A DNA stretch of 64,000 nucleotides from Rhizobium sp. L1K21. GTDB taxonomy: Bacteria; Pseudomonadota; Alphaproteobacteria; Rhizobiales; Rhizobiaceae. Under the pieces are notes generated by a model, which worked only from the letters and a program-made list of their open reading frames with translations, had not been told where the DNA came from and ran no database searches. The stretch lies in the NCBI RefSeq assembly GCF_024055895.1, contig NZ_JAMXLE010000004.1:124001-188000 (forward strand). The letters run 5' to 3'. Below, one piece after another: positions 27,977 to 39,076 of the stretch (positions are counted from its first letter, which is position 1; each line of letters opens with the position of its first letter). The position numbers and the translations under genes were made by a program.

Positions 27977-28378
27977 CTAACCGCGGCCCAAGAGGCGATT
28001 GAGCGCGCGGCGATCCTTCTTTTCCGGTCTTCCGCTGCCGGCAGCGCGCGTGGCGATCTCGAACGGCGTCAGTTCATTTTTCGGCGGTGGGGGCGGGGAG
28101 TGATCCTCATAGAGCAGGCGTGCCTCCTGGTAAGGACCACGCCGCGAACCGCCACTCACCACTTTCAAAACAAGGTCGCGCCGGTCGAGCGTGACCTCAA
28201 CCGTGTCGCCGGGTTTGACGTTGACCGAAGGCTGCGCGATGCGGCTTCCGTTCACCTTCACGCGCCCCGATGAAATCAGGGTCTGCGCGAGAGAACGGGA
28301 CTTTGCCACGCGGGTAAAGAAGAGCCATTTGTCGATGCGCTGGCGTGCAACGATGTCCGGCCCGTCTTCTGTCGTCAT
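27977..28378 (-). CDS. S4-domain RNA-binding protein (Hsp15-like)
   Basis: Protein of 133 residues with an S4 RNA-binding domain at the N-terminus (RQRIDKWLFFTRVAKSRSLAQTLISSGRVKVNG) as in Hsp15, which rescues stalled 50S-nascent-chain complexes. The C-terminus is basic and Pro-rich (HSPPPPPKNELTPFE). Its ATG overlaps the helicase stop (ATGA), so the two proteins are translationally coupled, which suggests related RNA functions. Confidence 0.9.
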   Translation of the reverse strand: MTTEDGPDIVARQRIDKWLFFTRVAKSRSLAQTLISSGRVKVNGSRIAQPSVNVKPGDTVEVTLDRRDLVLKVVSGGSRRGPYQEARLLYEDHSPPPPPKNELTPFEIATRAAGSGRPEKKDRRALNRLLGRG

Positions 28379-31317
28379 TTCTTCAGCTGGTCCTTCAGGA
28401 TTGCCAATTTTGCGAAGGGCGAATTGGGGTCTATCGGCTTTTCCTTGCGCTGAGGGGCGGGTCTGCCGCCGTCCTTGCGCGGCTGCTGATGTTTGCCGCC
28501 GGGCGCGCCCTTTCCGCCGCCTTTGCCCTTGTGCGGCACTTTGCCACGTCCGCGCTGCTCTCCGGGCTGGCCTTGATGGGCCTGGTTGGCCTGGTGACCA
28601 CCGCGACGGTGGCCCTGCCGCTGATTGTCATTGCGACCTGCTGGCCGCCATAGGAGAACCGGCTTCGGCTCTTCCTCGGCCACAGGCTCCGCCGCATCGG
28701 TTGTGGCAGAGGTTTCTGCTGCCGGTGAAGCCGGCTCCGCGTTTGCTTCGCCTTCAGCTTTTTCTTCGGTCACGGCAGCCTCAGCTTGCGCGCCCTCTTC
28801 AGACTTGTCCGCTTCAGCCGCAGGCTTGGCAAATTTCGCGTCCTGCTCCTGCAGGAATGTCTTCGCCTCTTCAGCTGAAACGCTGTCGGCGCGGTAACCG
28901 AGCCCTTTGAGAATTTCTTCAATATCGTCGGCTGTCGCACCCAGGATCGAGAGCATGGCGGGCGTGGTGGTGAAACGACGACCGTCATAAGCACCTTCAG
29001 GCCGTACACCGCTTTCCGGCTTCCACTGCAGAAGCGGGCGGATCAGATCAGCGAGACGCTCGAGGATGTCAATGCGCACGGCGCGCTTTCCAAGGAAACG
29101 GAAGCCCGCAAGCTTGTAGAATGTTCGTTCGAAGCCCGGTTCGGTGACAATCGAGGTGCGGCCTGCAGCCAGCGCCGGGATCAGGTCGCCGTAGCCGGGT
29201 TTGTCCATCGCATCATTGTTCAGCGCCCAAAGGAGCGTGATCAGTTCTGCGGGCGCGGGCTTGAGAAGAGCCGGCATGAAAACATGGTAAGCACCGAAGC
29301 GAATGCCGAGCTTGCGCATGGCACCGCGCGCATCCTGGTCCAGGCTCTTGACCTCGTCGGCAACGTCGCGACGGAAAAGCACGCCGAGATTTTCCACCAA
29401 CTGGAAGGCCAGGCCCTTGGCAATGCCCTGCAGTTCCTCGTCGCGGGACAGATCGTCCAGCGGTTTCAGCACGGTTGCGATGTGATGGTTCACAAAGCGT
29501 TCGATGCGGGCTGCAACGTGATCGCGGGCCGGACCGGTCAGCTGTTCATCGGCCAGAAGCACAACGCGTGGTCGCAGAATGTGATCGCCGGATGTGATGC
29601 GGGCAACGGGATCACCGACCCAGCGCACGACGCCGTCCGAGCCCAATGCCAGATCACCGTTTCCGGCGGCGTGGATGCGGGCAGCACGCGCCTCGAACTC
29701 CAGCGCCAGCGCCTTTTGAGCCGCCGCAGCCATTGCCTTGCCCTCTGCACTCTCGGTTGCATTGGCCAGGGTAAAGCGGAAGCCCGCCAATTGTCCCACA
29801 TGATGCCCCTCTACAAAGACATCACCATTCACACTGATTTCAGCTTCCAGCATCGCATTCTCTCTCAGGCGCTTCATGAGCACAGATGTCCTGCGATCAA
29901 CAAAGCGTTTCGTCAACCTATCATGTAGCGCGTCAGAGAGGCGATCCTCTATTTCACGCGTTTTTTCCTGCCAGTGTGTCGGATCGGCAAGCCATCCCGG
30001 GCGGTTAGACACATAAGTCCAGGTTCTGATCTGCGCAATACGGGCGGACAAAGTATCGATTTCGCCGTCTGTGCGTCCGGCCCGTTTTACCTGTTCGGCC
30101 ATATAATCTTCATTGATATGACCCTGCCGAATCAAATCGGAATAAAGCGTCAGAATAATATCAGCATGCTGTGCCGGCGTAATACGGCGATAGTCCGGCA
30201 GGGCGCAAGTTTCCCAAAGCTTTTCAATGCGCGCCGGCGTCGTAGCCAAGTCCTTTACCTCAGGCAGTTTGCAGAGGTTTTCAAGCGCCAGCATATCGAC
30301 AGCGGGCAAAGCTCTTGTAAGGCCAGGTAGCACAGGCGTTGCATTCAGGCTTTCATCGAGATCGCGCAGGGACGAAAAGTCGAGCGCCTTCGAACGCCAC
30401 TGCAACACCTTCACAGGGTCGAATTCATGGGCTTCGATTCGCTCCACCAATTCCTCGTCGAAGGGGCTGACATGGCCGGTAACGCCAAAGGTTCCATCAC
30501 GCATATGGCGTCCTGCGCGCCCGGCAATCTGGCCCAGTTCGCCGGGATTGAGGTTTCGGTATTGATAACCGTCGAATTTGCGGTCCTGCGCGAAGGCGAC
30601 GTGGTCGACATCCAGGTTCAGGCCCATGCCGACGGCATCGGTTGCGACGAGATAATCCACGTCGCCGTTCTGATAGAGGCTTACCTGCGCATTGCGCGTG
30701 CGCGGCGACAGTGCGCCCAGAACCACGGCTGCACCACCGCGCTGGCGCCGGATCAGCTCGGCAATGGCGTAAACCTCATCGGCGGAAAAGGCGACGATGG
30801 CCGAGCGGGGCGGCAGGCGGGTGATCTTCTTCTGGCCAGCGTAAAAGAGCTGTGACAGGCGTGGACGTTCCACAACCGTCAGGCCCGGCAGAAGCTGCCG
30901 CAGGATGCCGCTCATTGTTCCAGCACCCAGAAGCAGGGTTTCCTCGCGCCCGCGCAGGTGCAAAATGCGGTCGGTGAAAATATGTCCGCGTTCCAGGTCG
31001 CCCGCGAGTTGCACTTCGTCAATGGCGACGAAAGCGGCATTCGTCTCACGTGGCATGGCCTCGACGGTGCAGATTGTGTAGCGCGCGTTTGGCGGTGAAA
31101 TTTTTTCTTCACCCGTCACCAGCGCGACATTGGCGACACCGACCCTTTCGCAGACTTTCGCATAAACCTCGCGGGCAAGCAGCCTGAGCGGCAGTCCGAT
31201 GACGCCTGAGCCGTGCGCCACCATGCGCTCGATGGCGAAATGGGTCTTGCCCGTATTTGTCGGGCCGAGGACCGCGGTTACCCCGCGACCACTCAGGATC
31301 ATCGGCTGGATCGTCAC
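28375..31317 (-). CDS. SUV3-like DEAD/DExH RNA helicase
   Basis: Large helicase of 980 residues related to mitochondrial SUV3. Walker A is GPTNTGKTHF, the DExx box is AFVAIDEVQLAGD, and motif VI GQIAGRAGRHM. The final 190 residues are low-complexity: an Ala/Glu-rich stretch, then Gly/Arg/Gln/Lys-rich RNA-binding-like sequence ending SPFAKLAILKDQLKK. I take a GTG start (TIQPMILSGRG...) with GGAAG 9 nt upstream. The frame remains open another 104 codons with no family similarity. It is coupled to the S4-domain gene. Confidence 0.88.
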   Translation of the reverse strand: MTIQPMILSGRGVTAVLGPTNTGKTHFAIERMVAHGSGVIGLPLRLLAREVYAKVCERVGVANVALVTGEEKISPPNARYTICTVEAMPRETNAAFVAIDEVQLAGDLERGHIFTDRILHLRGREETLLLGAGTMSGILRQLLPGLTVVERPRLSQLFYAGQKKITRLPPRSAIVAFSADEVYAIAELIRRQRGGAAVVLGALSPRTRNAQVSLYQNGDVDYLVATDAVGMGLNLDVDHVAFAQDRKFDGYQYRNLNPGELGQIAGRAGRHMRDGTFGVTGHVSPFDEELVERIEAHEFDPVKVLQWRSKALDFSSLRDLDESLNATPVLPGLTRALPAVDMLALENLCKLPEVKDLATTPARIEKLWETCALPDYRRITPAQHADIILTLYSDLIRQGHINEDYMAEQVKRAGRTDGEIDTLSARIAQIRTWTYVSNRPGWLADPTHWQEKTREIEDRLSDALHDRLTKRFVDRRTSVLMKRLRENAMLEAEISVNGDVFVEGHHVGQLAGFRFTLANATESAEGKAMAAAAQKALALEFEARAARIHAAGNGDLALGSDGVVRWVGDPVARITSGDHILRPRVVLLADEQLTGPARDHVAARIERFVNHHIATVLKPLDDLSRDEELQGIAKGLAFQLVENLGVLFRRDVADEVKSLDQDARGAMRKLGIRFGAYHVFMPALLKPAPAELITLLWALNNDAMDKPGYGDLIPALAAGRTSIVTEPGFERTFYKLAGFRFLGKRAVRIDILERLADLIRPLLQWKPESGVRPEGAYDGRRFTTTPAMLSILGATADDIEEILKGLGYRADSVSAEEAKTFLQEQDAKFAKPAAEADKSEEGAQAEAAVTEEKAEGEANAEPASPAAETSATTDAAEPVAEEEPKPVLLWRPAGRNDNQRQGHRRGGHQANQAHQGQPGEQRGRGKVPHKGKGGGKGAPGGKHQQPRKDGGRPAPQRKEKPIDPNSPFAKLAILKDQLKK

Positions 31318-31456
31318 GTGTTCACTTCCGGCTGGCGGAGTTGATTGAATTTCGAAGGCGCCAGCACCAATGCATATAGGTCGCATTCGACGCAAGGGAA
31401 GATTGCCTTCCCATTGCGGTTTTTTTCGTCGAAATCGGGCCTGTTGGAACAGCGTG

Positions 31457-31516
31457 GGAACGAATCGGCGACGAATCGCTGACTCTTTACCGTTCGATCT
31501 TTGTTCACGGCTATAT
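31457..31516 (+). promoter_or_regulatory. Promoter module A (CGAATC pair + GTTC + CTATAT)
   Basis: A 27-bp core with two CGAATC boxes one helical turn (11 bp) apart, then 19 bp, GTTC, four bases and CTATAT. CTATAT equals the rhizobial -10 consensus, while the -35 position (TACCGT) is poor. The core would cover about -66 to -40. No protein gene follows. A hairpin with TTTCTT ends 83 bp further on. Confidence 0.6.
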
Positions 31517-31522
31517 ATTGTG

Positions 31523-31599
31523 GATTCTCCGCTCGCCGCCCCAGATCGTGATGAGTCGTTAATTTGCGCTCGCTGGCCAGCTTCCAGGCCGGCTTTCTT
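31523..31599 (+). ncRNA. Candidate small RNA from module A
   Basis: Predicted transcript from the module A -10 box to a GCTGGCC/GGCCGGC hairpin followed by TTTCTT. There is no reading frame with a ribosome site in it. This rests only on promoter and terminator geometry. Confidence 0.25.
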
Positions 31600-31681
31600 C
31601 CCCAAGGGCCATGCAAGTGACAATTCCAATTATGGTTAACAGATTGTAAATTATGCTGATTCTACGCGCCTGCGTTAATAA

Positions 31682-31752
31682 ACCGATCAAAGGCGGAACG
31701 AATCGGCGACGAATCGCCGACCTCGGCCCGTTGCGGCTTTGTTCTCCACTAT
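31682..31752 (+). promoter_or_regulatory. Promoter module B
   Basis: Same 27-bp core as modules A and C except one base, preceded by CGATCAAAG as in C. GTTC begins exactly 20 bp after the core end and CTATAT follows. It points towards the 3' end of the oppositely oriented LytTR gene, so it may give an antisense or short RNA. Confidence 0.6.
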
Positions 31753-31936
31753 ATCTCGTAGCTCCTCCTTTAGGCTGACGCTATTTCGCTGCGCATTAAC
31801 TCCGGGCGGATGTGGTTCTCCCTCGGTTTGTTAACCACTGGATGGCGACATTTCATCTTTTGTTATTATCTGGTGCCGCTATGCAGTCCGATGGAACGGA
31901 GCGCCGATGAGTGATTTGCGAATCAGTGAGGCGCGT

Positions 31937-32746
31937 TCAAGCGAGCAATCCGGCTTCGCGCACCTTTGGCAGGAAGGAGCGGCTGACGGGCAGATGCTGG
32001 CCCGTGACCGTTTCAATCATGACTTTTCCGTTGCGGCGTTCGACTGCCTTGATTGCGACGAGTGCCACCCAATGGGACCGATGGATCTGCAGTCCGGCTG
32101 TGGGCGCGCATTCGCTGATCGCATCGCTCAACCGCATCAGCAGCAGCTGTGTGCCTTTGGTTGTGGTCACCTCCACATAATGGTCGGCGACAGAAAGTGA
32201 AATCAGATCGCCTCGCTTGGCAAAGGCCAGACGCTCCAGCAGCCGACATTTTCCATCTTCCGCCCGAGAGGCCGTTCCTGCAGTGGCTTTCTTGTTCAGC
32301 AGGATCGTCACGATGCCTGCGACAATGATCCCCATGAGCACCGTGTAGCCACTGTTTTTTAGAATAAAGGCAAGATCGAATATATCGCTTCCGAAGGCAA
32401 ACCATTCGACAGAGAGAGCTACCGGCAGGACGGCGACACCTGCAGCCACGCCGGTGATCACAACCCGAAACGGCTGCGGGCAACCGCGTTTGATCAGCGC
32501 TACGCGGCAGTTGGACGCGGTGAAATCGCCCACAGCAAAACCCAAAACGACCATAACAGCCCAAAAGCCGAGCCTCTGGGGCAGCGCCAGCGTGTCCAGG
32601 GTGCCGAAAGGACCGGAGACGGTCAGCACCACGATAAGCGCCAGCAGAACAGCCCATTGCTGGAGCGAACGAAATCCCTTTCGCGTTTCACGAAGCGCGA
32701 ATTGCAGGGGGCTGTCGGCCACGTAGCTTGGCTGCGTTTCGCGCAT
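31937..32746 (-). CDS. Membrane-anchored LytTR-type transcription regulator
   Basis: Protein of 269 residues. Four transmembrane helices (about residues 26-150, including QQWAVLLALIVVLTVSG and LMGIIVAGIVTILLN) precede a C-terminal LytTR DNA-binding domain (LISLSVADHYVEVTTTKG, LQIHRSHWVALVAIKAVERR). There is no receiver domain, so it senses through the membrane part or a partner. The start is MRETQPSYVAD. The longer open frame runs antisense through the divergent membrane-protein gene and is rejected. It lies among four copies of a repeated promoter module and is the obvious candidate regulator. Confidence 0.88.
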   Translation of the reverse strand: MRETQPSYVADSPLQFALRETRKGFRSLQQWAVLLALIVVLTVSGPFGTLDTLALPQRLGFWAVMVVLGFAVGDFTASNCRVALIKRGCPQPFRVVITGVAAGVAVLPVALSVEWFAFGSDIFDLAFILKNSGYTVLMGIIVAGIVTILLNKKATAGTASRAEDGKCRLLERLAFAKRGDLISLSVADHYVEVTTTKGTQLLLMRLSDAISECAPTAGLQIHRSHWVALVAIKAVERRNGKVMIETVTGQHLPVSRSFLPKVREAGLLA

Positions 32747-32833
32747 CTGCCGTTGTGTCCTTTCGCATCTGATGAGAGCTGAACCGCATCCCTTCCGGGA
32801 CATGTTCAAGGCAATAAACAAACGGAGAAGATC

Positions 32834-33346
32834 ATGCAATTTCTTGTCGGCATCGTAACGCATACGCCGATCTGGGTTTGGGCCATTCTGGCGGCTCTCG
32901 TCTACCGCGGATGGACCATGACGCGGGACCGCGTCATTCATCCAATTTCTCTCATGCTGATACCGGCAATCTTCATTTTGCTGGATGCTGTCCAATTGAT
33001 TGCCAGACAGGCCGGCAACGAGACCTTGTTGCTGACGTTGATCGGCATTCTCAGTGGGCTCTGGGCGGTCGTCTTCCTCAAGCCAGCGCGCAACACCCAA
33101 CGCCTGGCCGACGGCAAACTGGCGATCGAGGGCGAGTGGATTTCCATCTGCATATTTCTCGCCGTCTTTTCAGGCAACTATATCGCAGGTGTTCTAGCCG
33201 TCATCAATCCGGCGGTGGCGACGAATGCGCAGCTGGCCGCCGCCCTGTTCAATGGCTTCAGTGTCGGCTTCATGACCAGCCGCGCGATCGCGCATCTGCG
33301 TTCATCAAACACAGGCGAGGTTGTTTCCAGCGCACAGCGTGGGTAA
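32834..33346 (+). CDS. Five-helix membrane protein, possible LytTR partner
   Basis: Protein of 170 residues with five predicted transmembrane helices (THTPIWVWAILAALVYRG, LMLIPAIFILLDAVQL, LTLIGILSGLWAVVFL, ISICIFLAVFSGNYIAGVL, LFNGFSVGFMTSRAIA). CGGAGAAG lies just before the ATG. It resembles an uncharacterised bacterial membrane-protein family whose number I am unsure of. It is divergent from the LytTR gene with only 87 bp between the starts, which suggests shared control and possibly a membrane sensor or inhibitor role. Confidence 0.82.
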   Translation: MQFLVGIVTHTPIWVWAILAALVYRGWTMTRDRVIHPISLMLIPAIFILLDAVQLIARQAGNETLLLTLIGILSGLWAVVFLKPARNTQRLADGKLAIEGEWISICIFLAVFSGNYIAGVLAVINPAVATNAQLAAALFNGFSVGFMTSRAIAHLRSSNTGEVVSSAQRG

Positions 33347-33436
33347 TTTTCCATCGTGATGGCGAAGTGATCGGCGCGCGAAATTTTGGTTAATATATTG
33401 TTAAATAAGCGAAATTCCTCGCCATCTTTTACTTTT

Positions 33437-33507
33437 CGATCAAAGCCGGAACGAATCGGCGACGAATCGCTGACGGGGCTCTGTTTTTGTTTCGTTCTAT
33501 ACTACAT
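33437..33507 (+). promoter_or_regulatory. Promoter module C (alpha/beta hydrolase gene)
   Basis: CGATCAAAG, then the 27-bp core with CGAATC boxes 11 bp apart (identical to module A), a 19-bp gap, GTTC, four bases and CTACAT. It points at the hydrolase gene about 180 bp downstream. Confidence 0.65.
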
Positions 33508-33518
33508 GCTGTGGTTTT

Positions 33519-33559
33519 AGCGGCGGGGGCGACTATTTTGCGCAAGTCGTCTTGCCGCT
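33519..33559 (+). other. Leader hairpin of the hydrolase gene
   Basis: AGCGGC pairs with GCCGCT and GGCGAC with GTCGTC inside it, giving a stable stem-loop close to the predicted transcript start. It could protect the 5' end or act in control. No T-run follows directly. Confidence 0.45.
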
Positions 33560-33685
33560 TGATCGCCCTTTTTCGCCGCTTCTTTAACCTTTTGGGGATC
33601 GCGTTAAGACGCTGTAAAGGAAATAAACCGCCTCTTTCGAGGAACCAAATGTCTGCTTCTGCGTTGGGAAACCAGGAGCAAAACG

Positions 33686-34702
33686 ATGAAACTGAGCGTG
33701 CCGTCAGCAGAGTGGATCAGCAAAGAGCCGGGTCCCCGGTTTGTCCTGCTTCATGGAATGACGATGGCACCGGTTTTCTGGCGAAGCTTCACCCCCGACA
33801 AATTGCTTTCGGGCATGAGTGCTGCCTATCCCCTTCCGGGCCATTATCCGTGGACATTGAGTGACGAGGAGCGCGCCGGTCTTTGCACAGATATGATTGT
33901 TGATGCCTATGCAGAGGTAATCGAACGCGATTTTGGCGGCAACCCTGTGACGCTGGTTGGGCATTCCACCGGTGCGCATCTCTGTCTTCTTGTGGCGGCA
34001 AGGAGACCCGATCTGGTCGATGGTGTTATTCTGGCCGGGGGGTTTGGCTGTGGCCGTTTCGAAGGCCAGGAGAGTATCGCGACACGAATTCTGATGATGC
34101 CATTCCTCGGTCCAGCCATTTTCATGAAGCTCTTTTCGCGGTGGATTTCAACACCGGACAATTTCAGGATGGGCGCGGCCCGTTGCGTGGGCGATCGTGC
34201 CTGCCCGTGGGAAACGGAAGTCACGCTTGAGAGCATGGAAAACGTGCGCCGCCAGCTGTTGCTGTCAAACCCGCTGGACATTGTTGCCATGGCCACCTGG
34301 TTGCGCCACCAGAGCATCATGAAAAGCCTGCCGAAGATCACACGACCGGTGCTGAATGTCATCGGGCTGAAAGACTATGTGGTTCCTGCGGTGCACCAGC
34401 TCAACGTTTCCAGGCAGTTGCCCAATGTGCAAACAGTGCTGCTTCCGAACTCCGGGCATTTGCCGATGGTGGAGCAACACGCCTATTTCAACCGCGTGGT
34501 CAACGCTTTTGTCGAGATGAACGGTTTGAAATCGCTTCCAGGTGCGGCTGCGAGTTTCGCTCTCCCGGCGCAGAATGCGCAGGCACGGGTGGCGCGTGAG
34601 CAGCCAGTTCACGTCCCCGATCTCGACGTGCCGGAGGACTTGCGTGCAATCGCCGGAAGGCTTGTTTCGGGTGATAAAATTAACACCTCGATCAGACCGT
34701 GA
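33686..34702 (+). CDS. Alpha/beta hydrolase
   Basis: Soluble alpha/beta-fold hydrolase of 338 residues. The oxyanion region is FVLLHGMTMAP, the nucleophile elbow GHSTG, the acid in GLKDYVVP and the catalytic His in NSGHLPMVEQ. The substrate is unknown (ester or lactone likely). The last 50 residues are a Pro/Ala-rich extension. CAGGAG lies 7 nt before the ATG. Its stop codon lies at the start of promoter module D. Confidence 0.87.
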   Translation: MKLSVPSAEWISKEPGPRFVLLHGMTMAPVFWRSFTPDKLLSGMSAAYPLPGHYPWTLSDEERAGLCTDMIVDAYAEVIERDFGGNPVTLVGHSTGAHLCLLVAARRPDLVDGVILAGGFGCGRFEGQESIATRILMMPFLGPAIFMKLFSRWISTPDNFRMGAARCVGDRACPWETEVTLESMENVRRQLLLSNPLDIVAMATWLRHQSIMKSLPKITRPVLNVIGLKDYVVPAVHQLNVSRQLPNVQTVLLPNSGHLPMVEQHAYFNRVVNAFVEMNGLKSLPGAAASFALPAQNAQARVAREQPVHVPDLDVPEDLRAIAGRLVSGDKINTSIRP

Positions 34703-34759
34703 ACGAATCACAGACGAATCGCCCACATCGTTGCTTTCCCGGTTTGTTCTCTACAAAAT
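34689..34759 (+). promoter_or_regulatory. Promoter module D (thioesterase gene)
   Basis: The most diverged copy: CGATCAG, a core matching the others at 21 of 27 positions with both CGAATC boxes intact, GTTC exactly 20 bp after the core end, and CAAAAT in the -10 position. It overlaps the hydrolase stop codon and points at the thioesterase gene. Confidence 0.6.
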
Positions 34760-34830
34760 ATTGTGTAATAACAAATTATTAACCATATTTTTCAGCCTGT
34801 AGATGGCATTCTCCACCTCCTCGGTGTTAA

Positions 34831-34849
34831 CCTTTGCCGCTGGCAAAGG
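34831..34849 (+). other. Leader hairpin next to the thioesterase ribosome site
   Basis: CCTTTGCC and GGCAAAGG form a perfect 8-bp stem with a 3-base loop. It ends 8 nt before GAGGAGG, so it could modulate translation initiation. Confidence 0.45.
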
Positions 34850-34869
34850 GGCTATTGAGGAGGGGTTGG

Positions 34870-35274
34870 ATGATCACATACAAAGGCGTTGTTTCGCCGC
34901 AGCAATGCGATGTTATGGGACATATGAACGTGCAGCATTATATCGCTGCGTTCGATCATGCCTCCTGGCACCTTGTGGCGGCGGCCGGTTATCGCTCTGC
35001 CTGGTTGGAAGAGCGCAAACTCGGATGGGCCGATCGCCATTATGACGTGGACTTTTTGGACGAATTGCCTGTCGGTAGCCTGATCGAAGTGCGAAGCAAG
35101 ATTTTGAAGGTGGGACGCACGTCCCTGACATTGCATCATGCGATGTACAACACAGAAACGGGCGGCCTCTGTGCTGAAATCACCATTGCCACCATCCTCT
35201 TCGATCTTGTTGCCCGCAAATCCGCGCCGCTGCCGCAGGAGATGATTGACGGCGCGGCAAAGCTTCTGGCTTGA
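34870..35274 (+). CDS. Hotdog-fold acyl-CoA thioesterase (4HBT family)
   Basis: Protein of 134 residues with the single hotdog domain and the catalytic-type motif QCDVMGHMNVQHYIAAFD, typical of 4-hydroxybenzoyl-CoA / YbgC-like thioesterases. GAGGAGG lies 6 nt before the ATG, which rules out the 12-codon longer frame. It should hydrolyse an acyl-CoA in the cytoplasm. The next gene, a second hydrolase, starts 29 bp later and probably shares its transcript from module D. Confidence 0.87.
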   Translation: MITYKGVVSPQQCDVMGHMNVQHYIAAFDHASWHLVAAAGYRSAWLEERKLGWADRHYDVDFLDELPVGSLIEVRSKILKVGRTSLTLHHAMYNTETGGLCAEITIATILFDLVARKSAPLPQEMIDGAAKLLA

Positions 35275-35303
35275 GGCTCTGAGCCTGGGGGGCGTTCCAA
35301 AAA

Positions 35304-36287
35304 ATGCACATTGTCATTCAGTTCGCGCTGATCAGCGTCGCGATTTTCTTCGTCATTGCCTTTGGCCTCATTCTCAGCCAGCCGGCTTCCGGTCATATAT
35401 CCGGAAAGACCCTGCAGTTTGAGGCAACACGCCTTGGGGGAACTGCCGATATACCCTTGCGCTATTATGAAGCCGGTGACGGGACGACGCTTGGATACCG
35501 CTATCTGCCCGGCAAGAGCGACGATGTCCCGCTTCTGGTCTTTGTTCATGGCTCTGGCTGGCACGGTCAAGGCTATGTGCAGTTTGCCGAAGCGGTCCAT
35601 GGGGAGGGCGACATCGCGGTCGCCCTGCCTGATCTGCGTGGCCACGGGCCCCATCCTCAGCGGCGCGGGGATGTCAATTACATCGGACAGCTGGAAGACG
35701 ATATTGCCGAACTCATCAGCATTTTGCGGCATCCTGGCCAGAAGCTCGTTCTTGGCGGACATTCGAGCGGCGGCGGGTTGGTTATTCGCTATGCCGGCGG
35801 CCGTCATGGGTCCGATCTCGATCAGGCTGTGCTGATCGCTCCGTTCTTGAAATATAACGCGCCAACCATGCGGCCCAATAGCGGCGGCTGGGCGCATGCG
35901 CTGGTGCGCCGCATCGCCGGACTGAAGATGCTGAACATGATCGGAATTAGCCAGCTCAACGGCCTGACGGCTATCGAGTTCAATTTTCCCGACAGCGTTC
36001 TGCAAGGCCCTCTCGGGGCAACCGCAACGCAATCCTATTCCTATCGGCTGAATGAAAGTTATGCGCCGCGGGCAGACTACCTGAAAGACGTCGCAGCGCT
36101 TCCGCCTTTCCTTCTGATCGCCGGGCGCGACGATGAAGCCTTTCAAGCAGAAGCCTATCAGCCGACGCTCTCTGAAGCGACAGAGAAGGGGCGCTACGTG
36201 CTGTTGGACAAAACCGGGCATCTGGACGTCTACAACAAGCCGGAGACGGCTCAGATCATTCGCGATTTCGTGCTGGGGAAGGATTGA
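35304..36287 (+). CDS. Membrane-anchored alpha/beta hydrolase (lysophospholipase-like)
   Basis: Protein of 327 residues with an N-terminal transmembrane or uncleaved signal helix (IVIQFALISVAIFFVIAFGLIL) followed by an alpha/beta hydrolase domain: VFVHGSGWHG, DLRGHGPHP, nucleophile GGHSSGGG, acid in AGRDDEAF, His in TGHLDVYN. The fold and the membrane anchor suggest a lipid or lysophospholipid substrate, facing the periplasm or membrane. A GGGGGG stretch precedes the ATG. A bidirectional terminator shared with acnA closes the unit. Confidence 0.85.
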   Translation: MHIVIQFALISVAIFFVIAFGLILSQPASGHISGKTLQFEATRLGGTADIPLRYYEAGDGTTLGYRYLPGKSDDVPLLVFVHGSGWHGQGYVQFAEAVHGEGDIAVALPDLRGHGPHPQRRGDVNYIGQLEDDIAELISILRHPGQKLVLGGHSSGGGLVIRYAGGRHGSDLDQAVLIAPFLKYNAPTMRPNSGGWAHALVRRIAGLKMLNMIGISQLNGLTAIEFNFPDSVLQGPLGATATQSYSYRLNESYAPRADYLKDVAALPPFLLIAGRDDEAFQAEAYQPTLSEATEKGRYVLLDKTGHLDVYNKPETAQIIRDFVLGKD

Positions 36288-36333
36288 GCCTCTCCATAGG
36301 CCAGCAGCGAAAGGCAGATAGAGGAACGCATGT

Positions 36334-36365
36334 AAAAAAAGGCCGGACAACATGCCCGGCCTTTT
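36334..36365. terminator. Bidirectional terminator, hydrolase / acnA
   Basis: AAGGCCGG pairs with CCGGCCTT. T-runs follow on both strands: TTTT on plus, and CCTTTTTTTAC on minus, where it ends acnA. Confidence 0.85.
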
Positions 36366-36385
36366 CGCTCTTTGTACCTAATCCC

Positions 36386-39076
36386 TTAAGCAGCCAGCTG
36401 CCGAAGCACCGTCTGCAGGATGCCGCCGTTGTTGACGTAGGTGATCTCGTCCAGCGTGTCGATGCGGCAGATGATCGGGACTTCCTTGTTGGAGCCGTCG
36501 CCGAAGGTGATCTTGGCGATCTTCTTTTCGCGCGGCTTGACGCCGGCCAGACCTTCGATGGTGACAATTTCGTCGCCCTTGAGGCCGAGGCTTTCCCAGG
36601 TGGTGCCCTCTTCGAGAACGAAGGGAACGACGCCCATGCCAACCAGGTTCGAACGGTGGATACGTTCAAACGACTGGGCAATCACGGCGCGAACGCCGAG
36701 CAGGTTGGTGCCCTTGGCAGCCCAGTCACGGGACGAGCCGTTGCCGTATTCAACACCGGCGAAGATGACGAGCGGAACGCCCTCTTCCTTGTACTTCATG
36801 GCCGCGTCGTAGATCGACATCTCTTCCTTCGACGGATAGTGGATCGTGTAGCCACCTTCCTTGCCGTTCGGGCCGAGCATGTGGTTGCGGATGCGGATAT
36901 TGGCAAATGTGCCGCGCATCATGACTTCGTGGTTACCGCGGCGCGTGCCGTACTGGTTGAAGTCTGCAACGCCCACGCCGTGTTCGGTGAGATATTCACC
37001 GGCAGGCGAAGCCGCCTTGATCGAACCGGCCGGCGAGATGTGGTCGGTGGTGATCTTGTCGCCGAAGAGACCGAGAACGCGAGCGCCGACAATGTCGGAG
37101 ACCGGCGTCGGCTGTGCGCCCATGCCCACGAAGTAAGGCGGGTTCTGCACGTAGGTCGATTCGTCGTCCCAGGTGTAGGTCTGACCGGACGGGGCCTGAA
37201 CAGCCTGCCAGTTTTCATCACCCTTGAATACATCAGCATATTTGGCCGCGTAAATTTCACGCGTCACATATTTCATGATGTATTCCTGGATTTCCTGCGT
37301 GGAAGGCCAGATGTCCTTCAGGTAAACCGGATTGCCGTTCTGGTCTTCGCCGATCGGATCCTTGGTGAGGTCCTTCTGGACGGAGCCGGCGAGCGCATAA
37401 GCCACAACGAGCGGCGGGGAGGCCAGGTAGTTTGCCTGGACGTCCGGCGACACGCGGCCTTCGAAGTTGCGGTTGCCGGAGAGAACGCCAGCGGCAATCA
37501 GGCCCTTGTCGTTGATGGTCTTGGAGATCGGACCCGGCAGCGGACCAGAGTTACCGATGCAGGTGGTGCAGCCGAAGCCAACGAGGTTGAAGCCGAGCGC
37601 ATCCAGGTCCTTCTGGAGCCCGGAATTGTTCAGATATTCCGCGACCACCTGCGATCCGGGTGCCAGCGAGGTTTTCACCCACGGCTTGGACTTCAGACCC
37701 TTGGCGACAGCGTTGCGGGCAAGCAGGCCGGCAGCAATCAGAACCGATGGGTTCGATGTGTTGGTGCACGACGTGATGGCTGCGATGCAGACATCGCCGT
37801 GACCGAGATCGTAATCCGTGCCTTCAACAGCATAGCGGTTTTCCAGCTGGCCGGGCTTCTTGTACTCGGCCTCAAGCGCGGTTGCGAAGTTCGGTGCAAT
37901 GGTTTCCAGCGCCAGGCGGCCTTCCGGACGCTTGGGACCAGCCATGGAGGGGACAACGTCGCCAAGGTCGAGTTCCAGCGTGTCGGTAAACACGAGATCG
38001 GAGCCGTCGCCTTCGCGCCACATTCCTTGAGCCTTCGAATAGGCTTCAACGAGGGCGATGCGATCGGTGTCGCGACCGGACATGGTGAGGTAGTTGATGG
38101 TTTCGCCGTCAACGGGGAAGAAGCCGCAGGTTGCGCCATATTCCGGACCCATGTTGCCGATGGTGGCGCGGTCGGCAAGCGACATGGCGTCAAGGCCGGG
38201 GCCGAAGAATTCGACAAACTTGGAGACAACGCCCTTCTTGCGCAGCATCTGCACAACGGTCAGCACGAGGTCGGTTGCCGTGCAGCCTTCCTTCAGCTTG
38301 CCGGTGAGCTTGAAGCCAACGACTTCCGGCAGAAGCATGGAAACCGGCTGGCCGAGCATGGCCGCTTCAGCTTCGATACCGCCAACGCCCCAGCCGAGAA
38401 CGCCAAGACCGTTGATCATGGTCGTGTGGCTGTCGGTGCCAACGCAGGTGTCGGGATAAGCGGTGGTTTCGCCGTCTTCTTCCTTGGTCCAGACCGTCTG
38501 GCCCAGATATTCAAGGTTCACCTGGTGACAGATGCCGGTGCCGGGGGGAACAACGCGGAAGTTCTTGAACGCCTGCTGGCCCCATTTCAGGAACTTGTAA
38601 CGCTCTGCGTTGCGCTGATATTCCAGTTCCACGTTGCGCGCGAAGGCGGTGGCAGAACCGAATTCATCGACGATCACGGAGTGGTCGATCACGAGATCGA
38701 CGGGAACGAGCGGGTTGATCTTTTCCGGATCGCCGCCGAGCGCCTGGAGGCCGTCACGCATGGCTGCAAGGTCAACAACGGCTGGAACGCCGGTGAAGTC
38801 CTGCATCAGCACGCGGGCCGGGCGGTAGGCGATTTCAGCTTCGGTCTTGCCCTTGTTGGTCAGCCATGCAGCGCAAGCTTCAATGTCGGCCTTGGTGACC
38901 GAACGGCCATCTTCATTGCGCAGCAGGTTTTCCAAAACCACCTTCATGGAGAAGGGCAGCTTGGAAATGCCGGTGAGGCCGTTTTTTTCAGCCTCGGGAA
39001 GGCTGTAGTAAACAAATTCTTTGCCGTTGACGGTGATCGTCGAACGACAATTGAAGCTGTCGAGTGATTTTGCCAC
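36386..39076 (-). CDS. acnA: Aconitate hydratase A
   Basis: TCA-cycle aconitase of 896 residues converting citrate to isocitrate. The iron-sulfur cysteines are in [12 protein letters not shown] and [36 protein letters not shown] and [15 protein letters not shown] are further signatures. The GTG start gives the conserved N-terminus (AKSLDSFNC). About 50 extra codons upstream are open but unconserved. It is transcribed alone and divergent from the ccm genes. Confidence 0.97.

Follow-up and report, generated by a model that had tools for sequence, protein, structure and literature searches.

Within a 64,000-nucleotide stretch of the Rhizobium sp. L1K21 genome (contig NZ_JAMXLE010000004.1, positions 124,001 to 188,000; hereafter the window), four copies of one repeated element, A to D, lie between positions 31447 and 34763, and the same element recurs in other Alphaproteobacteria. 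Judged from its letters, the module is a non-coding control site of about 80-105 bp, as is evident from its copies, their spacing and conservation, its place divergent from a helicase gene, and a likeness of its parts to boxes at ribonucleotide reductase (RNR) genes and recA. The four repeats in the window are confirmed as a genuine repeated regulatory module, intergenic and with fixed inner spacing. We think it on balance probable that the module acts as a repressor-gated composite promoter, built of predicted LexA and NrdR sites, that answers replication stress and the level of deoxynucleoside triphosphates (dNTPs).

Anatomy of the module

A preliminary description of the window had reported four 27-bp cores, each with two CGAATC boxes 11 bp apart, and had read them as promoters of a local regulon under one activator. 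Its coordinates for cores A, C and D (31457, 33448 and 34700) are right, as is the plus strand for all four; core B starts at 31695, two bases from the 31693 given. The mismatch counts to core A (one in B, none in C, six in D) and the CGATCA just 5′ of cores B, C and D were seen again, and in all four copies a GTTC starts at position 20 past the core, with an additional GTTC at position 9 in copy A. The CTATAT-like hexamers that follow read, from A to D, CTATAT, CTATAT, CTACAT and CAAAAT. A scan of the whole genome (4,336,913 bases, up to two mismatches) for the pattern ACGAATCnnnGACGAATC matched only at these four places, and the reversed control pattern gave no match anywhere in it. At three mismatches 0.95 matches are expected in the window, and four were reached in 1 of 100 shuffles; all four real matches have no mismatch.

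The layout would comprise two opposed LexA-type direct repeats, GAAC-N7-GAAC and xTTC-N7-GTTC, with their centres 45 bp apart and the CGAATC boxes and CTGAC between them, followed at the right end by a predicted NrdR box, CNANATNTNG, and in leading copies by a second about 31 bp further on. The parts of the four copies are as follows; profile R1 is a sequence-only profile of the module for which 94 representatives were combined with the four window copies, 98 rows in all.

31447-31550, plus: module copy A, whole (profile R1 match in its own genome, 67.6 bits)
31447-31461, plus: A, upstream LexA-type direct repeat GAAC-N7-GAAC, 8/8 letters
31457-31483, plus: A, 27-bp core, two CGAATC boxes 11 bp apart
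31492-31506, plus: A, downstream LexA-type direct repeat GTTC-N7-GTTC, 8/8 letters
31511-31520, plus: A, NrdR-like box 1 CTATATATTG, previously taken for the -10
31541-31550, plus: A, NrdR-like box 2 CCAGATCGTG, 5/6 letters, 30 bp past box 1
31685-31699, plus: B, degenerate upstream LexA-type repeat GATC-N7-GAAC, 7/8
31695-31721, plus: B, 27-bp core
31730-31744, plus: B, downstream LexA-type repeat GTTG-N7-GTTC, 7/8
31749-31758, plus: B, NrdR-like box 1 CTATATCTCG
31779-31788, plus: B, weak NrdR-like box 2, 5/6, 30 bp past box 1
33438-33452, plus: C, degenerate upstream LexA-type repeat, 7/8
33448-33474, plus: C, 27-bp core, same letters as A
33483-33497, plus: C, downstream LexA-type repeat, 7/8
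33502-33511, plus: C, NrdR-like box 1 CTACATGCTG, 5/6; partner at 31 bp merely 4/6
34690-34704, plus: D, degenerate upstream LexA-type repeat, 7/8
34700-34726, plus: D, 27-bp core
34735-34749, plus: D, downstream LexA-type repeat TTTC-N7-GTTC, 7/8
34754-34763, plus: D, NrdR-like box 1 CAAAATATTG, without clear partner (3/6)

For comparison across genomes, a module was called from a core with up to three mismatches, a TTTGTTC-like string with up to two and enough flank, which gave 285 modules at 143 loci, window included. L001-L004 (duplicates of the window itself) and L026 (a match in coding sequence) were excluded from the module counts, and merging of duplicate sequences left 276-278 distinct modules; some named and unnamed loci are one genome.

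At the place of the putative -10, the letters conserved in 278 distinct modules are C-n-A-n-A-T-n-T-n-G (C 0.91, A 0.85, A 0.83, T 0.86, T 0.88, G 0.86), which form the perfect palindrome CNANATNTNG. CTATAT, previously read as the rhizobial -10, is instead the left half of this palindrome: the last base of the hexamer is unconserved, and the whole fits boxes at RNR loci. Nor is a sigma-70 signal evident elsewhere, the best base at positions 28-32 reaching only 0.37-0.44 and the first base of a TATAAT-type hexamer being A or T in about equal share. The -35 positions had been called poor, and no -35 is conserved in the modules.

The consensus of the NrdR box is acaCwAtATaTwGwgt. Passages of PMC12051234 and PMC12176259 describe an NrdR site as two 16-bp palindromes with 15-16 bp between them, 14-17 bp being tolerated. 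Upstream of nrdJ in the genome under study stand boxes CTATATTTAG and CAAGATACAG, 32 bp apart. More generally, two CNANATNTNG boxes spaced 31 or 32 bp apart and matching in 11 or 12 of their 12 letters were found at 19 of 31 RNR loci, in the flank in all 19 cases. None of 28 recA loci and none of 8 hemE loci has such a pair, and among 77 array-free segments of 4.5 kb one does; in a narrower region just 5′ of the RNR reading frame, and with a looser score, 12 of the 31 RNR loci have a pair. The array-free segments replace an earlier control of random regions (35 of 465 with a pair at 31 bp) that was contaminated by arrays, and the RNR comparison with this new control strengthens the NrdR part of the reading.

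The module boxes themselves also resemble those at RNR genes. With a matrix made from 38 RNR boxes, the median score is 12.9 for module box 1, 14.1 for RNR boxes and -18.2 for background, and 95.9% of the module boxes exceed the 99.9% background quantile, in a full-matrix comparison that is partly circular (see below). Free positions, which played no part in site choice, average 0.88 in the modules (n = 221) against -5.57 in 4983 other sites with at least five of six letters. Among modules with at least 5/6 letters in box 1, to which the partner count was restricted, 81% of the 134 first copies and 54% of the 28 middle copies have a second box whose start lies exactly 31 bp from that of the first, the background being 0.2-0.4%. 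Window copies A and B have their partners at 30 bp.

The right half of the module matches a predicted NrdR box, mostly paired in the leading copies. It shares with the boxes at RNR genes of the same genomes the palindrome CNANATNTNG and similar flanks and, in most first copies, has a partner at 31 bp (30 bp in window A and B); it differs in being joined to LexA-type repeats and CGAATC boxes, in the absent partner of last copies and in not preceding an RNR gene. No RNR was found among the named right-hand neighbours of modules, which were not seen upstream of an RNR operon, and the RNR matches of the genome under study are on a different contig from the modules. The nrdR gene is present in this genome and in 41 of 42 genomes tested. 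At three nrd loci (L267, L271 and L241) GTTAAC or GTTAAT abuts NrdR-like box 1, the same hexamer being enriched in the array.

The alphaproteobacterial LexA motif is given as GTTC-N7-GTTC in passages of PMC3323433 and PMC6237742. In the module, GAAC at positions -13 and -2 makes up an upstream repeat, GAAC-N7-GAAC, which 129 of 138 first copies, and 146 of all 276 modules, carry in exact form; in window B, C and D its first half-site is GATC, part of the shared CGATCA. In 243 of 276 modules, TTC at 33 and GTTC at 43 form the opposed downstream repeat, which reads GAAC-N7-GAAN on the reverse strand. Both repeats are exact in copy A, accounting for two of just five exact cases in the window; those of B, C and D have 7/8 letters. 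Upstream of recA in 27 genomes (28 loci less L288, in which no frame could be read), the best GAAC-N7-GAAC site has 8/8 letters in 12 and 7/8 in 15; only the 12 exact sites carry weight, because chance often gives seven.

The module resembles in part the alphaproteobacterial LexA (SOS) box, with direct repeats exactly 7 bp apart, both exact in copy A and of a kind found exact before recA in 12 of 27 genomes. It differs in having two opposed boxes 45 bp apart within a larger module, in a downstream half-site that is usually NTTC, and in that no classical SOS gene was recognised to its right. The single activator proposed in the preliminary description is doubtful, as the GAAC and GTTC parts are spaced like the box of the LexA repressor of Alphaproteobacteria, which leaves only the CGAATC part as a possible site for another factor. 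At L300, a recA locus of another order, a LexA-type box GAACATGCCGGGAACGAATG about 237 bp 5′ of the RecA match is near the module's left half, GAAC-N7-GAACGAATC, and the CGAAT part may extend a LexA site.

Between the two LexA-type repeats, the CGAATC pair and the CTGAC that follows are strongly conserved, the two CGAATC boxes being nearly invariant in the 278 distinct modules, a set collected by this very pattern with up to three mismatches. CGAATC-N5-CGAATC would be a well-defined site for a further factor and is a ready bait for pull-down. PHO-box type sites of OmpR/PhoB-family regulators likewise consist of two 7-bp direct repeats with an 11-bp period (here ACGAATC-N4-ACGAATC). However, the letters differ from the PHO box, the module is at a single locus in its own genome, and no cognate regulator was found.

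Distribution and neighbouring genes

The module is kept across a wide range of genomes. In the family, the pattern at one mismatch occurs in 282 of 394 sampled genomes, including that of the window; the reversed control at one mismatch has matches in 9 rows of the family table, by our reading of it. Profile R1 matches 221 of 297 genomes of the order and 31 of 289 of the class, with the window's own again counted in both, 258 of the latter having no match at the threshold used. Of the 31 matches, 28 are beyond the order; 12 of these have E values of at most 1e-6 and mostly cover nearly the entire 80-position profile, the rest being weaker and several partial. Carriers among the matches listed include Mesorhizobium, Rhizobium, Sinorhizobium/Ensifer, Hoeflea, Martelella, Bartonella and former Ochrobactrum species; the Sinorhizobium sp. 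strains A49 and 6-70 are among them. We found no published description of the module in the part of the literature covered.

At the 143 fetched loci with module calls there is one copy in 30, two in 92, three in 13 and four in 8, mostly 196-300 bp apart with peaks at 271-273 and 281-284 bp. Helical phasing of these distances was set aside, the periodicity being weak (P about 0.03 on distinct spacings). Direction is uniform within an array; calls on both strands occur at 1 of the 143 loci (L027), where the reverse call looks spurious. In 49 aligned two-module units, mean pairwise identity is 0.77 for module 1, 0.80 for box 2, 0.70 for module 2 and 0.69 for a GTTAAC block, against 0.35-0.42 for the spacers and beyond and 0.52 for the helicase side.

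The genes around the window array are listed below.

28375-31318, minus: Suv3-like helicase gene, divergent from the array (start near 31318 inferred; the open frame extends to 31629)
31937-32746, minus: LytTR-domain protein gene, between B and C
33686-34702, plus: alpha/beta hydrolase gene, 3′ of copy C
34870-35274, plus: 4HBT thioesterase gene, 3′ of copy D (linkage seen in four fetched same-genus relatives)

The helicase, identified by a Pfam DEXQc_Suv3 match, is the most constant neighbour: its gene lies left of the modules and divergent from them in 100 of the 110 loci that span 5 kb or more, and 37 of 40 loci sampled beyond the family or the order have a gene of the helicase cluster. In S. 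meliloti the helicase gene is SMc03877, named mgpS in PMC4941405, and an array may lie there between it and phbB. In the window, positions 31364-31410, from the helicase start to copy A, are partly conserved and may hold a helicase promoter on the minus strand. To the right of the modules, 80 of the 110 loci have a convergent short-chain dehydrogenase gene, which we take to be PhaB-like; in the other families and orders, the cluster of a convergent DUF3108 gene is found in 12 of the 40 loci and that of a co-directional acyl-CoA dehydrogenase gene in 10. In one family of the order (L242, L243), three modules are at a second locus off the helicase, next to genes that are found around the array in other genomes, among them presumably one for an L28-like ribosomal protein; this seems to be an array split by rearrangement. 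Since the right side varies and modules also occur off the helicase, the modules can do without the helicase and without any one target gene.

The preliminary description correctly placed the hydrolase gene after copy C and the thioesterase gene after copy D. Copies A and B have no protein gene to head, the next gene to the right being the LytTR gene on the opposite strand. Four same-genus relatives (L248-L251; of five seen) each have three modules, at a distance of 248 bp from the first to the second and 213 bp from the second to the third, and in all four the third module precedes the thioesterase gene. Searches with tblastn in their 4.5-kb stretches found the thioesterase and the helicase in 4 of 4, and did not find the LytTR protein, the DUF6622 protein or the two hydrolases. 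In the window, LytTR-domain and DUF6622 genes occupy 31937-33346, between copies B and C. The simplest history would be that A, B and D represent the original set of three and that the LytTR, DUF6622 and hydrolase genes and copy C arrived between B and D. The LytTR regulator was rejected as the module's factor: it was not found in the four same-genus stretches and is in no cluster of at least four neighbour proteins. In other genera as well, a module can be followed by an alpha/beta hydrolase gene (right of the module in L046; L027:1520-2695), and module and hydrolase may travel together.

Array DNA outside the modules, compared at 110 loci with Markov shuffles and with flanks, is rich in certain words. 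GANTC occurs 8.59 times per kb (3.84 in shuffles, 1.33 in flanks), GTTAAC 5.23 times (0.16 and 0.02) and DnaA-type boxes 0.46 times (0.07 and 0.01); three of four control words have no excess over both references. The fourth, AAGCTT, is 1.7- to 2-fold up in arrays (0.44, with 0.26 and 0.22 in the references). No DnaA-type box was found in the window's own array. GTTAAC is represented there as follows.

31635-31640, strand not assigned: GTTAAC; the other two of the window are at 31830 and 34826, and all three lie within module units

These hexamers were rejected as CtrA boxes, for just 4 of 236 have CtrA spacing (TTAA-N7-TTAA or TAA-N7-TTAAC); TTAA-N7-TTAA is nonetheless slightly overrepresented in arrays (8, where shuffles give 1.0), and 3 of 5 same-genus loci have it between the first two modules. 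In the 15 of 16 genomes that allow the measurement the locus is 74-792 kb from hemE and on the same side, the two being on separate contigs in the 16th (G270), and both array orientations relative to hemE occur. The alphaproteobacterial origin by hemE shares GANTC clusters and DnaA-type boxes with the array but lies in a different place, and GTTAAC is nearly absent there (2 in 8 loci). That the array is the chromosomal origin is ruled out: parS-like sites sit with hemE, elsewhere (G156 has none).

Weighing the explanations

In the mechanism that we favour, NrdR (loaded with dATP or ATP) and LexA would bind the module and hold it closed, repressing rightward initiation near the NrdR box. A fall in dATP and other dNTPs, or DNA damage, would open it, and RNA polymerase would start rightward, close to box 1. 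The pair of GAATC boxes and nearby GANTC sites could add a methylation signal, perhaps timing the firing. The transcript would be non-coding in most genomes; in this genus the last copy would drive the thioesterase gene, and in the window a further copy precedes the hydrolase gene. Binding, repression, start and direction are what we infer from the motifs and their arrangement. The missing hexamers lower the case for a canonical promoter, not for a promoter as such, and promoter activity is likewise a prediction.

Several observations weigh against this mechanism. The most conserved letters of the module, the two CGAATC boxes, are accounted for by neither LexA nor NrdR, and a promoter scan found none at the modules. 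Only 34 of 276 modules have a downstream repeat that fits the LexA pattern exactly, and by our estimate a 7/8 site arises by chance in about a quarter of recA scans and an 8/8 site in about 1%, which weakens the LexA comparison. On the NrdR side, the full matrix score is partly circular in that box 1 was chosen on five of the six palindrome letters, a circularity that the free-position test avoids. The 107 last copies are without a second NrdR box, window copies C and D have no good partner, and, according to passages of PMC12051234, the affinity of Escherichia coli NrdR falls 530- to 1000-fold on loss of one box. Of 20 tested genomes in which the search gave no module, 19 also have the nrdR gene (one by a partial match), so that there is no contrast in presence. 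Finally, the sequences are related, and significance is inflated as a result.

An older reading, close to that of the preliminary description, holds that the modules are sigma-70 promoters without a -35, served by one activator on the CGAATC direct repeat with its 11-bp period, as in the OmpR/PhoB family, and forming a local hydrolase-thioesterase regulon. In its favour are the near-invariance of the boxes in the pattern-collected set, the common direction of modules within an array and the genes that C and D precede, with the link between D and the thioesterase kept in the four relatives. Against this, the -10 letters form a palindrome that agrees with NrdR boxes, neither A nor B has a gene to head, and the GAAC and GTTC repeats are left unexplained. 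Moreover, the local regulon does not survive the wider comparison: the module is spread over the class, as a rule at one locus and usually without a co-directional gene, the right-hand gene beyond this genus being mostly the convergent dehydrogenase. We regard this reading as unlikely. It is also improbable that the array is a set of small-RNA genes with each module as a promoter. The tandem units, mostly without a protein gene, and a terminator-like hairpin after copy A (31572-31593) are consistent with it, but sequence between modules is poorly conserved and terminator-like sites are at the shuffled level (5, with 4.5 in shuffles). Rfam 15 gave no match at gathering score in 18 loci and, in window positions 28000-38000, four weak matches far under the cut-off (best E 0.12), none of them at a module. 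RNAalifold predicted no pairs in two alignments of the modules, downstream units not being part of these alignments, and the complementarity of GAACGAA and TTTGTTC is for this reason read as opposed protein sites.

Equally improbable, in our judgement, is that the array is a site for chromosome maintenance or replication timing at which DnaA, CcrM and possibly CtrA act, with NrdR and LexA sites reporting on replication and transcription being incidental. The wealth of GANTC, GTTAAC and DnaA-type boxes and the nearly constant side of hemE point in this direction; on the other hand, the array is not the origin, parS-like sites are with hemE, both orientations occur, CtrA spacing is rare among the GTTAAC hexamers, and the window array has no DnaA-type box. 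A mobile or selfish repeat, such as a miniature inverted-repeat transposable element or a repetitive extragenic palindrome, would account for several near-identical copies close together, and is extremely improbable. The distribution refutes it in the main, as there is one locus in the genome under study, with a recurrent neighbour, a common strand and conservation across orders, and the second place in one family looks like a rearrangement beside genes of the old neighbourhood.

Biological meaning

Near-invariant letters in a non-coding site that has stayed in one place from order to order imply strong selection. For annotators, the apparent rhizobial -10 at this site is half of a repressor-type palindrome, and a likely mistake is thereby corrected. 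NrdR is described as RNR-specific in PMC9110341; if LexA and NrdR both bind the module, there would be a direct link between SOS and dNTP sensing away from RNR genes. More speculatively, and in a reading that we regard as unlikely, the array might be a class-wide hub that joins LexA damage sensing, NrdR dNTP sensing, CcrM methylation of GANTC and perhaps DnaA, and that acts through the DNA itself, either by timed firing or by titrating both repressors off other targets when the origin-side locus duplicates. Were this true, it could bear on replication control in Sinorhizobium, whose chromosomal origin carries no CtrA motifs according to passages of PMC4433202, and dNTP synthesis and the SOS response would be tied to the replication cycle in Alphaproteobacteria.

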